Shown: in pieces, positions 6,858-17,838 of the stretch | Numbering within the stretch: position 1 is the stretch's first letter | Layout of the letters: the number at the start of each line of letters is the position of its first letter | Source: a bacterium | Lineage (GTDB): Bacteria; Auribacterota; UBA6266 | Length of the DNA: 35,344 bases | Assembly: GCA_028717725.1 (NCBI GenBank) | Contig: JAQUNG010000006.1 | Span: 1 to 35,344 of the forward strand | Direction: 5' to 3' | Notes under the pieces: model-generated | The model's database searches: none | What the model saw: only the letters and a program-made list of their open reading frames with translations | Told to the model about the DNA's origin: nothing | Made by a program: the position numbers and the translations under genes

Positions 6858-7205
6858 TTAAAGCACCCTTGGATAAGATCCCAGTATCTTGACAAGTTTG
6901 CAGTGACTGGAAATATCCTTTATGCATTTTTTTATTTTTTCATCTTCAACATATCCGTCAAAATCCACAAAAAAATAATACTCCCACGCCCTTTTTTTGG
7001 AAGGCCTGGATTCTATCTTTGTAAGGTTTATTTTCATCTTTTTGAATGGCTGCAACAACTCGTAAAGGGCTCCGACTTTATCTTTTATCATAAGGAGGAC
7101 GGAAGTTTTGTTCTTTTTGCTCCTTTTGCTGTAATTTCGCCCCACAACCAGAAACCTTGTCTCATTATGCGCCGTATCCTGAATAGAACTTGCCAGGATT
7201 TTCAT
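6858..7205 (-). CDS. pheA: Prephenate dehydratase, C-terminal part with ACT domain (3' segment of a pheA split by a stop codon)
   Basis: This is the 3' end of one pheA frame broken by a TAG at 7358-7356. It carries the prephenate dehydratase motif NETRF (T256-R257-F258 in full-length numbering) and an ACT domain. The ACT domain has GALYELL and ESRP, the two phenylalanine-binding motifs of PheA. Homology to the family continues upstream in the same frame through 7355 (QCRLWLEANLPGLEY, then IPTSSTTAA), where no ATG, GTG or TTG is available. ATG 7205 is the first possible restart, has only weak Shine-Dalgarno-like sequence, and would leave out about 50 dehydratase residues. A functional separate protein is therefore unlikely. 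Confidence 0.85.
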   Translation of the reverse strand: MKILASSIQDTAHNETRFLVVGRNYSKRSKKNKTSVLLMIKDKVGALYELLQPFKKMKINLTKIESRPSKKRAWEYYFFVDFDGYVEDEKIKKCIKDISSHCKLVKILGSYPRVL

Positions 7206-7355
7206 ATTATATTTTTCCGCGGCAAGACTGCTGGCGATAGCCGCGGCGTGTTTTTCCCTGGAGGCCCTTATAGTGGCCGCTGTAGTGCTGGAGGTGGGAA
7301 TATACTCAAGCCCGGGAAGATTAGCTTCAAGCCATAACCTGCACTGCCCGAATAC

Positions 7356-7358
7356 CTA
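7356..7358 (-). other. In-frame amber codon interrupting pheA
   Basis: The minus strand reads TCG AAT CCG TAG GTA TTC GGG CAG. In PheA proteins the motif is YS-(H/N)-P-Q-x-x-x-Q-C, so the TAG stands at the conserved Gln and is one C-to-T change from CAG. The frame is otherwise continuous from 7925 to 6858 (189 codons before, 165 after). TAG is also the real stop of three other genes in the window, so it is not an obvious sense codon here. Confidence 0.92.
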
Positions 7359-7925
7359 CGGATTCGAATATATCCTTTTTATGTCACTGATTCGGGATTT
7401 TCCTATAAGAAAATGATTTATTTCCAGATAAATCTCGGCGCAGATCTTGAGGTCCGAGTCAATAAACATATCAAGCGTATGGGTTACTCCGCCTTCTATA
7501 GAATTTTCTATCGGAACAACACCGTAATCGGCGCTCCCCTTATCGACAAGCGTAAAAACATCCGATATGGAAACGGCCGGAATATATTTAACCGAAGAAC
7601 CGAATTTCCTGGAAGCGGCCATCTGGGTAAAAGAGGCCTCGGGTCCCAGAAAAGACACCATAACATCTTTTTCCAGCGCAAGCGAGGCGGACATTATTTC
7701 CCTGTAAATATTTCTGAGCGAATCACTGTCAAGCAGACCTTTGTTGATTCTGGAAATATTACTGTAAACTTCTTCCTCCCTTGAAGCCGAATAGTATTCT
7801 GCATTGTATTTCTTCTTTATTTTGGCGACTTCGTGGACAACTTCGGCACGCTCATTCAACAGCTGGATCATCTTTTTATCAACGGAATTAATCCTCTGTC
7901 TGAGATTTTTTAATTCCTTCATCAT
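7356..7925 (-). CDS. pheA: Chorismate mutase / prephenate dehydratase, N-terminal part (5' segment of interrupted pheA)
   Basis: PheA converts chorismate to prephenate and then to phenylpyruvate. This 189-codon segment holds an AroQ-type chorismate mutase domain (residues about 1-85, with LRQRINSVDKKMIQLLNERA and a later SREEEVYSNI). The first half of the dehydratase follows (VSFLGPEASFTQMAA near 90, YGVVPIENSIEGGVTHTLD near 137). It ends at the TAG at 7358 while homology continues in frame. The mutase domain is complete and could still work. The dehydratase is cut before its TRF catalytic motif and should be inactive unless the stop is read through. The likely start is the second ATG (7922), 5 bases after GGAGG. 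It lies 8 bases after scpB. Confidence 0.9.
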   Translation of the reverse strand: MMKELKNLRQRINSVDKKMIQLLNERAEVVHEVAKIKKKYNAEYYSASREEEVYSNISRINKGLLDSDSLRNIYREIMSASLALEKDVMVSFLGPEASFTQMAASRKFGSSVKYIPAVSISDVFTLVDKGSADYGVVPIENSIEGGVTHTLDMFIDSDLKICAEIYLEINHFLIGKSRISDIKRIYSNP

Positions 7926-11163: not shown

Positions 11164-13797
11164 TTAAATTTTATTTCTACTTTTACTGCTCTCTTCAAGA
11201 AGTTTTAGAGCGTATTGAAGTTCTTCCTCCTTCGTTATAATTTTACCGTCAAGTTTGGCTTTCAGCGTTTTTTCCAGAACATCCCTGAAACAGGGCGAAG
11301 GCGAAATATTATTTTTTATCAGCGTTTTACCGGTAATATTCAATTTTATATGCCTCAGCCTTTCCATAAAATCGGAAATTCTCCGCTTCGCCGCATCCGT
11401 ATCTGCTTTCGCTAACAGAAAAAGAAGGAACTCAACGGAATAAGTCCGAAGGTTGAAATATATTTCACTGTCAGACATTTTTTCCTTTCGCGACAGATAT
11501 TTTATCTTTGAAGGACCTTCTTTTTTAAATCTCAGGATTTTTTCCTTTGATTTTTTAGATAATTTGAATTTATCGCAAACGGATACTGTTTCCGGAAGTT
11601 TCAGTGAATCTATCAGCCCCATAAAATAAATAATCCACTGGGTAAAAGGTTCTCCCTTATTAAAAGAAAACCATGCTATAGCATTTTCCGTCTTGTTAAA
11701 AATATCCGCGGCTTTCCTGTCGAACTTTATTGACAGATGAATAAACCTCAATTCGTTGAAGTCGGCCATTCTTCTTATGGCGTTAAGCGGCTTTGGTTCG
11801 CTGAGCATTAGGATAATCTCGTTTTTCACCCTGTCATACGCGACTTTATCGAACATCTTCATATCTACCGCGTTTTTTATAAGGTTTTGCGTATGCCTGT
11901 CGATAGCAAACCCCAATCTTTGTTCGAATCTCACTGCCCGAAATATCCTCGTGGGGTCATCCACAAAGCTCAAAGTATGCAGGACCCTTATAACTTTATC
12001 CCTGAGATCTTTTTTCCCGCCGAAAAAATCCACCAGCCTGCCGAACCCGTTTTCATTAATTTTTACCGCCATCGCGTTTATCGTAAAATCGCGCCTGTAT
12101 AAGTCGTTTTTTATGGAACTGTATTCAATTTTCGGCAAGGAGCCGGGGCTTTCGTAATATTCCGTCCTTGCGGTAGCGACATCTATCTTTATCCCGGAGG
12201 GAAGAGAGACTATGGATGTAAGAAACTTTTTATGAGGAACGGAATATCCTCCCAGTTTTTCCGCCAGACGGGACGCGAATTCTATGCCTTTGTCCTCAAC
12301 AACAATATCCACATCATAATTCGGAACTTTTAAAAAGACATCCCTGACAATACCGCCCACAATATAAGCGTCGCAGTTCATGCCGTCCGCGATGCGACCG
12401 GCGGCATAAAGCGCCTTTTTGATGTCGAAAGGCAATACTTCTTCAATCCTGTTTTTAATGTCGCTCAGGGCCGGCGTTGTTCCCGATTCAACGGGCAGAT
12501 GATAACCTGAATCTTCTTCATGCAATATCTTCAGTAATTCGTTTTTCGGTATTAAACCCGAAAGCCGGCGGCCGTTTTTCACGACAGGGATAACCGAATG
12601 CCTGTTTTTGAACATATAATCTTTTATCCGGGGAACGGTATCGTTTTCGCTCACGGCGCAGGTTTCCGGAGTCATGTAGTCGGCAACCGCGCTCTTTTTT
12701 AATCCATGCAATATCACTTTGTCGGCATCATGTCTCGACAGAAAACCGAGAAATCTCCCTTTGCTGACAACGGGAATCTCATCCAAAGAATTCCTCACCA
12801 TTAATTCTTTGGCTTTTTCGATAGTGCAGGACGGATTCGCTTTCTTTATGTATTTCTGCATGATATCTCTTGCTTTTATGGGAAGCTCCAATTCAGCCGC
12901 AAGAGCTTTTTTAAGTTTTTCCCTGGCTTCCACCAGCATAACTTTTTTCAACGTGGCGGAAGCGGCCGTAGGATGGCCTCCCCCTCCCATCCTTTCCAGT
13001 ATCTTCGCGACATTTACCATAGACACGTTGCTTCTCGCGACTATATGTATTCTGTTGTCCATTTCTATAAGAGCGAATATCACATTTATATTCTCGATGT
13101 CGCGAAGTCTGTGCACGACAAGCCCTAAATCCGCCGCATGTTCGTTTATCGAAGCGGATGCGATGCCGACATGAAGATTTCCAAGTATAAATTCTTCGGA
13201 ACCGCTTATAAGCTCTTTTAAAAGCATGGTCTGGACAGAGTCAAGTTCGGAAGCGAGAAAAGAATGCACCATGGATATGTCGGCTCCGCTCGAGAGCAGA
13301 AATGACGCCGCCCGGAAATCTTCGGGGGTTGTGGAAAGATGACCGAAATGTCCGGTATCTTCGTAAATGCCAAGCATCATAGCTGTAGCTTCGGTAATGC
13401 TTAATTTAATTTTTTTTCTCATAATTTCAAGGCAAAGTCCGGTTACGGTGGAACCGTAAGGAAAATAATGGTATTTTTCGTTGCTCTCTTTTTTCTTTAT
13501 TTTATGATGGTCATAAATGACAACAGGTATCTTTTTCCCTTCTATCCAGTTATAAACGTCCCCTATACGGCTCCCCGGCGCGGAGTCAACCAATATAATT
13601 TGTTCGACATCCGAAACATTTATCCCGGATACAATCGGGATACTTAAACTATCCGAACAGACCCTGAAAAACTCTTCAACATTCGCATCCAGGGAAGCCG
13701 GCAGCAATACTTTCGCGGCGGGATATAATTTGGACGCCGCTATCAAAGAAGCAAACGCGTCAAAATCGGCATTCAGATGGGTCGTAATTAACCTCAA
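11164..13797 (-). CDS. DHH / tandem CBS / tRNA nucleotidyltransferase fusion (CCA- or A-adding enzyme)
   Basis: This 877-residue protein builds or repairs tRNA 3' ends and carries extra regulatory-looking domains. Order: a DHH/DHHA1 phosphoesterase (NADFDAFAS at 9-17, DSAPGSR at 71-77, DHH at 96-98, GGGGHPTAAS at 271-280), two CBS domains (about 310-365 and 373-428), and a class II nucleotidyltransferase. That last domain has GGIVRD at 481-486, DVD at 495-497, RRDFTINAMAV, and the RNA-binding DDPTRIFRAVRFEQRLGF. DHH-CBS-nucleotidyltransferase proteins are known, in some species as A-adding enzymes paired with a CC-adding one. The start is TTG at 13797, supported by AAGGGG 6 bases upstream. 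It follows xerD after 2 bases. Confidence 0.92.
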   Translation of the reverse strand: MRLITTHLNADFDAFASLIAASKLYPAAKVLLPASLDANVEEFFRVCSDSLSIPIVSGINVSDVEQIILVDSAPGSRIGDVYNWIEGKKIPVVIYDHHKIKKKESNEKYHYFPYGSTVTGLCLEIMRKKIKLSITEATAMMLGIYEDTGHFGHLSTTPEDFRAASFLLSSGADISMVHSFLASELDSVQTMLLKELISGSEEFILGNLHVGIASASINEHAADLGLVVHRLRDIENINVIFALIEMDNRIHIVARSNVSMVNVAKILERMGGGGHPTAASATLKKVMLVEAREKLKKALAAELELPIKARDIMQKYIKKANPSCTIEKAKELMVRNSLDEIPVVSKGRFLGFLSRHDADKVILHGLKKSAVADYMTPETCAVSENDTVPRIKDYMFKNRHSVIPVVKNGRRLSGLIPKNELLKILHEEDSGYHLPVESGTTPALSDIKNRIEEVLPFDIKKALYAAGRIADGMNCDAYIVGGIVRDVFLKVPNYDVDIVVEDKGIEFASRLAEKLGGYSVPHKKFLTSIVSLPSGIKIDVATARTEYYESPGSLPKIEYSSIKNDLYRRDFTINAMAVKINENGFGRLVDFFGGKKDLRDKVIRVLHTLSFVDDPTRIFRAVRFEQRLGFAIDRHTQNLIKNAVDMKMFDKVAYDRVKNEIILMLSEPKPLNAIRRMADFNELRFIHLSIKFDRKAADIFNKTENAIAWFSFNKGEPFTQWIIYFMGLIDSLKLPETVSVCDKFKLSKKSKEKILRFKKEGPSKIKYLSRKEKMSDSEIYFNLRTYSVEFLLFLLAKADTDAAKRRISDFMERLRHIKLNITGKTLIKNNISPSPCFRDVLEKTLKAKLDGKIITKEEELQYALKLLEESSKSRNKI

Positions 13798-13799
13798 AA

Positions 13800-14753
13800 T
13801 TAACCCCTTGGATGGAATTTTTTGTGAATACTTTTAAGCCTTTCCCTATCGACATGGACATAATTCTGTGTAGTCGATATATCGGCATGCCCCAACATTT
13901 CCTGCACAACCCTTAAATCCGCCCCGTTGGCAAGAAGATGAGTGGCGAAAGAATGCCTAAGTGTGTGAGGTGTTATATTTTTTTTAATACCCGCTTTTTT
14001 CGCGTAAGATTTAATTATTTTCCACAGTCCCTGCCGCGTAAATTTTGCTCCGAATCTGGTTATAAAAAGTTCCGGCGGCGGCAAATTGGAAGAAGACAGA
14101 GCTATCTGGGGCCTGGATTTCTCAATATAGCGCTTAACGGCATCAAGCGCCTTTTGTCCTATAGGGTCAATGCGTTCCTTATTCCCTTTTCCCTTACATC
14201 TTAAAATACCTATCTCAAAATTTATGTCGCTTATTTTTAGGTTCACAACTTCGCTTATGCGAAGGCCCGTAGCATACATCAGTTCAAGAATAGCTTTATC
14301 CCTTAAATCATTAGGGGTATCTTTTCCGGGCGAAGCCAGGAGTTTAGTGACCTCTTTCTCGCTCATTACAGCCGGCAAAGCTCTCCATATCCTGGGAGAC
14401 TCTATAATCTCCGAAACATCCTCCTTCAGATACCTGTCCATCACCAGAAACCTGAACAGCATTTTTATCGATACCAGGGCCCTGGATACGGATAAGGTTG
14501 AGGATCCCCTGTTTTTTTCGGACAATAGAAAATCAACGATTACATCTCTGGGACATGAAGAAAAATCGGAAATCTTTTTACCGTCAAGGAAACCGATAAA
14601 TCTTTTAAGGTCGTTTTTATAAGCTTCGATACTGTTAAGGGCAAGGGATCTTTCAACCAGAAGATAGTTTATAAACTCGTTTACCAGTATGACAAGCGAA
14701 TGCGATTTTTCACTTACAGTATCAACTGGAATTTTTATCTTATTGTCCGCCAT
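13800..14753 (-). CDS. xerD: Tyrosine recombinase of the XerC/XerD type
   Basis: Xer recombinases resolve chromosome dimers at dif. From ATG 14753 the protein has 317 residues: an N-terminal SAM-like core-binding domain (VNEFINYLLVERSLALNSIE, YKNDLKRF) and a catalytic domain. The catalytic set is Arg in ATGLRISEVVNLKISD, Lys in CKGKGNKERIDP, HTLRHSFATHLLANGADLR (His and Arg), the GHADISTTQNYVHV His, and Tyr in NYVH. A longer reading starts at TTG 14771; neither start has a good ribosome site. XerD rather than XerC is a judgement from overall likeness. It sits in a housekeeping cluster with no integrase-type neighbours, so a chromosomal role is likelier than a mobile element. Confidence 0.88.
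   Translation of the reverse strand: MADNKIKIPVDTVSEKSHSLVILVNEFINYLLVERSLALNSIEAYKNDLKRFIGFLDGKKISDFSSCPRDVIVDFLLSEKNRGSSTLSVSRALVSIKMLFRFLVMDRYLKEDVSEIIESPRIWRALPAVMSEKEVTKLLASPGKDTPNDLRDKAILELMYATGLRISEVVNLKISDINFEIGILRCKGKGNKERIDPIGQKALDAVKRYIEKSRPQIALSSSNLPPPELFITRFGAKFTRQGLWKIIKSYAKKAGIKKNITPHTLRHSFATHLLANGADLRVVQEMLGHADISTTQNYVHVDRERLKSIHKKFHPRG
13804..13809 (-). promoter_or_regulatory. Ribosome binding site fixing a TTG start
   Basis: AAGGGG on the minus strand, within the last codons of the xerD-type gene, lies 6 bases before the TTG at 13797-13795. It supports that TTG as the start of the DHH-CBS-nucleotidyltransferase. The resulting N-terminus, MRLITTHLNADFDAF, runs straight into the first DHH motif. 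Confidence 0.6.
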
Positions 14754-14755
14754 AA

Positions 14756-15379
14756 TCAACAAATGTCCCAACCCGAAGTCTTTTCGGCTTTTATCGAGGT
14801 TTTGCAGCCATGTCCGGGATATACCGTTACGTTTTCGGGAAGCGCAAATATCTTTGTTTTTATCGACAATCTCAGGCTTTCAGTATCCCCTCCGGGAAGG
14901 TCTGTCCTGCCTACTCCCGAGGCAAAAAGGGTATCTCCCGAAAAAAGCGTTTGATCCCGGCAATACAGGCAGATACCTCCCGGCGAATGTCCCGGCGTAT
15001 GTATGACATCCATACTTTCACCGCCAAATACGATTTTTTCTCCTTCAGACAAAAGAATATCGGCTGCCGGCGACGATTCGGTTTTAATGCCGTAGATTTC
15101 CAGGATTTTATAACCGGAAACAAGCAGCGCCGCGTCATCCTCATGAATCGCTATGGGGATATTGAAACGCCGTTTCAATGCCCCATTGCCGGCAGTGTGA
15201 TCCGCATGAAAATGGGTATTCACGATAATCTCCGGCTTTAATCCGTTTTTAGCGATAATTTCCTCAACATACATATAGTCAAACGGATCCAGTATTACCG
15301 TCCGCCGGGTATCCGCGCAAAATATCAGGTAGCAATTAGTTTCGAGCGGACCATTTACAATCTTAATGATTTTTATCAT
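14756..15379 (-). CDS. Metallo-beta-lactamase-fold hydrolase, glyoxalase II-like
   Basis: This cytoplasmic zinc hydrolase of 207 residues probably cleaves a thioester or similar small substrate. The metal motifs are THFHADHTAGN (HxHxDH), HTPGHSPGGICLY, FSGDTLFASGVGRTD with the bridging Asp, and the last His in YPGHGCKTS. It is shorter than true GloB and lacks that enzyme's C-terminal glutathione-binding domain, so calling it glyoxalase II would be too strong. The likely start is ATG 15379, giving MIKIIKIVNGPLETNCYL, which matches the family start; a TTG at 15400 overlaps ligA. It lies between ligA and the recombinase. Confidence 0.87.
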   Translation of the reverse strand: MIKIIKIVNGPLETNCYLIFCADTRRTVILDPFDYMYVEEIIAKNGLKPEIIVNTHFHADHTAGNGALKRRFNIPIAIHEDDAALLVSGYKILEIYGIKTESSPAADILLSEGEKIVFGGESMDVIHTPGHSPGGICLYCRDQTLFSGDTLFASGVGRTDLPGGDTESLRLSIKTKIFALPENVTVYPGHGCKTSIKAEKTSGWDIC

Positions 15380-15396
15380 AATAAATCCGCAAAAAA

Positions 15397-17838
<2,442 letters not shown>

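Follow-up and report, generated by a model that had tools for sequence, protein, structure and literature searches.

An in-frame TAG codon in the only prephenate dehydratase gene of a draft genome near Auribacterota, and its probable origin in the assembly

Background

In Escherichia coli, the P-protein PheA carries chorismate mutase in residues 1-109, prephenate dehydratase (PDT) in residues 101-285 and the ACT domain in residues 286-386 (PMC8192741). Deleting pheLA in an engineered E. coli gave a slightly higher titre of a tyrosine product (PMC4945936). Assembly errors, tied to the assembler, the platform and the coverage, account for many internal stops in bacterial drafts (PMC11017572).

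The gene studied here lies on a contig of 35 kb (35,344 nucleotides, called the window below), which belongs to a draft genome of 1.75 Mb in 136 contigs with a completeness estimate of 96%. The source is an uncultured bacterium near Auribacterota, and the named records nearest to the draft carry the labels UBP3 and Candidatus Auribacterota. Compared with the bifunctional chorismate mutase/prephenate dehydratase (PMC8192741), the window gene has the same domain order and the same gene company, but differs by an in-frame TAG in the PDT part. It is like pheA1 of Bacillus subtilis JH642 (PMC2474695) in that one base change would remove prephenate dehydratase; pheA1, however, is a missense allele whose phenotype was tested, whereas the window allele is a nonsense one and a predicted null.

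Results and discussion

The pheA locus

A preliminary description of this DNA had proposed that a single frame encodes an AroQ chorismate mutase, a PDT and an ACT domain and is broken only by one TAG, and both translation and Pfam agree with it. The features are as follows.

6858..7925, minus strand: pheA (aroQ-pheA, P-protein) frame with one internal stop (translation, Pfam)
7668..7904, minus strand: AroQ chorismate mutase domain CM_2, complete, before the stop (Pfam PF01817, 75.5 bits, residues 8-86)
7359..7658, minus strand: first part of PDT, profile positions 1-102 of 181 (Pfam PF00800, 115 bits)
7356..7358, minus strand: in-frame TAG codon (translation; relatives' codons)
7134..7352, minus strand: remainder of PDT, profile positions 105-179, after the stop (Pfam PF00800, 76.7 bits)
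7203..7205, minus strand: first in-frame ATG past the stop, giving a 115-codon remnant without most of PDT (frame scan)
about 7160-7152, minus strand: Thr-Arg-Phe motif, inside the PDT remainder (motif coordinates)
6912..7103, minus strand: ACT regulatory domain, after the stop (Pfam PF01842, 38.6 bits)
7013-7002, minus strand: ESRP motif, in the ACT region (motif coordinates)

By translation, the frame from 7925 to 6858 holds 356 codons with a single internal stop and ends with a terminal TAA. CM_2, PDT and ACT all lie in it in the order of a P-protein, and what it lacks of an AroQ-PheA is the uninterrupted frame, which is lost at 7358-7356. Solved PDT structures compared with the product confirmed the family and gave no information on the stop. 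This is an ordinary aroQ-pheA locus in a run of aromatic amino-acid genes that goes from scpA and scpB through pheA to EPSP synthase. Upstream stand scpB, scpA and a gene for a class I tRNA synthetase, and downstream come genes for an aminotransferase, DAHP synthase, prephenate dehydrogenase and EPSP synthase. The TAG sits 7 kb inside the contig, away from the edge. From base composition, the chance of an open stretch of 165 codons following a random stop is about 1e-5, a figure that is irrelevant for the downstream half because of its homology.

Age of the stop

The half of pheA past the stop is, in the sequence comparison, as conserved as the half preceding it. Against the same-genus relative G001, dN/dS is about 0.07 for the part preceding the stop and 0.05 for the part following it, and the corresponding values against the second same-genus relative, G002, are 0.07 and 0.04. 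Counting the residues unique to this lineage where G001 and G002 agree, we found 16 in 151 before the stop and 4 in 164 after it, the latter being fewer than in either sister. A downstream half free of constraint over the entire branch should have gathered 130 to 200 replacements, so the 4 seen make the stop no older than about 5 to 7% of the branch, which is a rough estimate with dS near 1. For a real lesion, the preliminary suggestion of a recent origin is thereby upheld. Past the TAG we found neither a second lesion nor relaxed constraint of the kind that marks a pseudogene, and a very recent pseudogene would, as judged from sequence, show the same pattern of constraint as that observed.

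The codon in relatives

Among 109 relative loci, which include a few duplicates from the same genome, the position of the TAG is held by Gln in 69, by Glu in 28 and by Ile, Met, Val, Asn, Tyr or His in 12. The proposal of a conserved Gln changed by one C-to-T substitution is therefore not supported as it stands: Gln is indeed the commonest residue, but both same-genus relatives have Glu (GAA in G001, GAG in G002), while the same-family relative G003 has CAG, so that a C-to-T and a G-to-T origin are equally parsimonious and a single C-to-T origin is not established. None of the 109 loci has a stop within pheA, and a PDT match occurs in 42 of 43 same-phylum genomes, in no case with an internal stop.

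These comparisons also bear on the idea of a split enzyme whose halves are made separately and then assemble. The conservation of both halves is the sole point in its favour. As had been noticed before, no ATG, GTG or TTG follows the stop for 50 codons, the first being the ATG at 7205, and a start there would drop much of the downstream PDT; moreover, no relative is split at the TAG point, neither among the 109 loci nor among the 43 same-phylum genomes. We regard a split enzyme as the least credible of the explanations considered here.

Whether TAG is read as an amino acid

Another explanation is that a suppressor or near-cognate tRNA reads the TAG and a low level of full-length PheA results. 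The fully conserved downstream half would agree with this, as would two further TAGs that lie in frame within genes otherwise sound, namely rseP and a ComEA-like gene. Against it, RF1 is present in the genome above its cut-off, and no CUA anticodon occurs among the 39 tRNAs found, in a draft set that has no tRNAs for Ile, His, Asn and Trp, so that a suppressor might be missing from it as well. PylS is absent from the genome, by which pyrrolysine is rejected. Genes ended by TAG behave like those with the other terminators: 36 of 41 stop at most 5 residues from the ends of their relatives, compared with 142 of 151 for TAA and 110 of 122 for TGA, which indicates that TAG is a true terminator in this genome. 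Shuffles of the RNA around the stop fold as well as the RNA itself (z 1.1, 0.0 and 0.3), giving no sign of a recoding signal, and the in-frame TAG is absent from the same-genus species. In sum, none of the marks of amber suppression (a CUA tRNA, PylS, loss of RF1, TAG unused as a terminator) was found, and read-through, which the preliminary description had listed among the possible meanings, is left unsupported and very improbable. A broader form of it, in which the lineage tolerates in-frame TAGs in several working genes (pheA, rseP, ComEA-like) through a weak, unrecognised amber reading with RF1 retained, appears slightly more improbable still.

A real nonsense allele

If the TAG is real, it would be a very recent nonsense allele with a product of 189 residues, consisting of the whole mutase and half of the dehydratase. 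The step from prephenate to phenylpyruvate would be lost and external phenylalanine would be needed. Since the Thr-Arg-Phe part of PDT and the ACT domain both lie past the stop, the stub should, as far as its sequence tells, have no dehydratase activity, and mutase activity is possible. The earlier call for a second pheA or a separate dehydratase was followed up, and no other PDT gene was found in the 1.75 Mb draft, so that the stop lies in the sole PDT gene of a genome estimated as 96% complete. A protein of the cyclohexadienyl-dehydratase type (PF00497) is absent from the genome and nothing in it scored above the cut-off for the alpha chain of indolepyruvate oxidoreductase, so there is no obvious bypass of PDT. 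Phenylalanine-requiring point mutations in pheA are also known, for example in B. subtilis JH642 (PMC2474695).

On the other side, only 4 lineage-specific replacements in 164 residues are seen downstream, which confines the stop to about the last 5% of the branch; 42 of the 43 same-phylum genomes retain a PDT gene; and the draft has further lesions, including one in coaD. A real null allele is a serious possibility, though less probable than an error or a minor-strain allele. Were it correct, the gene would represent a recent auxotrophy allele of an ordinary kind, in an uncultured phylum which otherwise keeps phenylalanine synthesis. A bias of flux to tyrosine likewise presupposes a real lesion.

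Other lesions in the draft and the preferred explanation

We compared 800 kb of the draft genome with same-genus contigs over about 98,000 aligned residues, using best-frame filtering. This filtering replaced an unfiltered comparative stop test, which was swamped by shadow frames; an intrinsic search for in-frame stops by hexamer score was dropped, as it mostly returned tandem genes sharing one frame.

The genome has a single coaD, and a 1-base deletion at a T run splits it (G000:C16:11936-12393). Since bacteria need CoaD for coenzyme A, the frameshift is very probably an assembly error. The gene rseP has an in-frame TAG in its middle (G000:C14:16110), and no strong rseP match other than its two halves occurs in the genome; the family search shows no stop inside either stretch, as the TAG falls between them. 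The relative has Gly at the position of this stop, which stands in the context TAG GGT ATG, with an ATG two codons on; in principle, re-initiation at this ATG might yield RseP in two pieces. In E. coli, RseP is essential. Two further stops were found: a TGA in a large subunit of the complex I or hydrogenase type (G000:C38:521-523), where G001 has TGC, and a TAG in the ComEA-like helix-hairpin-helix gene (G000:C34:28-30), which lies 30 bases from the contig end and where the relative has GAG. Selenocysteine was considered for the hydrogenase-type TGA and rejected, neither SelB nor tRNA-Sec being above cut-off in the genome.

Thus lesions occur in genes that cells cannot normally lose, a frameshift in the sole coaD and a TAG in the sole rseP, and at least some lesions of the draft are not real in living cells. 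RseP is possibly dispensable outside E. coli, which leaves coaD alone as a firm sign of error; as a cell without CoaD should not live, the draft contains base errors. The drafts of relatives carry such lesions too, for G001 has an in-frame TAA in an mfd-like gene (12747-16019) where this genome has TTT, and G001 has frameshifts as well. In its isolated stops and a frameshift across conserved single-copy genes, the draft resembles the spurious pseudogenes described in other bacterial drafts (PMC11017572).

With these lesions, above all that of the sole coaD, assembly error, which had been only one option in the preliminary description, becomes the best one. The assembly contains the TAG, pheA is otherwise normally constrained, and other conserved single-copy genes including coaD are broken; from this we infer that the TAG in pheA is itself among the errors of the draft. 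On the sequence evidence the TAG is probably a base error of the draft consensus, or else a minor-strain allele chosen by the assembler, and pheA would then probably be intact in most living cells of the population. Against a base error, pheA lies well inside its contig, an isolated substitution is less typical of error than an indel, and natural one-base nonsense mutations in biosynthetic genes are also common. The stop is ordinary in kind whether it comes from the assembly or is a real null allele. A single stop in a draft that is apparently without an intact coaD is a poor ground for claiming auxotrophy or tyrosine-biased flux.

If the ancestral codon of pheA was GAG, 3 of the 4 substitutions in the draft are G:C to T:A, which are too few cases for any inference. 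As a separate observation, a release-factor homologue at G000:C26:3639-4655 has one internal TGA; this is expected for prfB (RF2), which has a known programmed frameshift.
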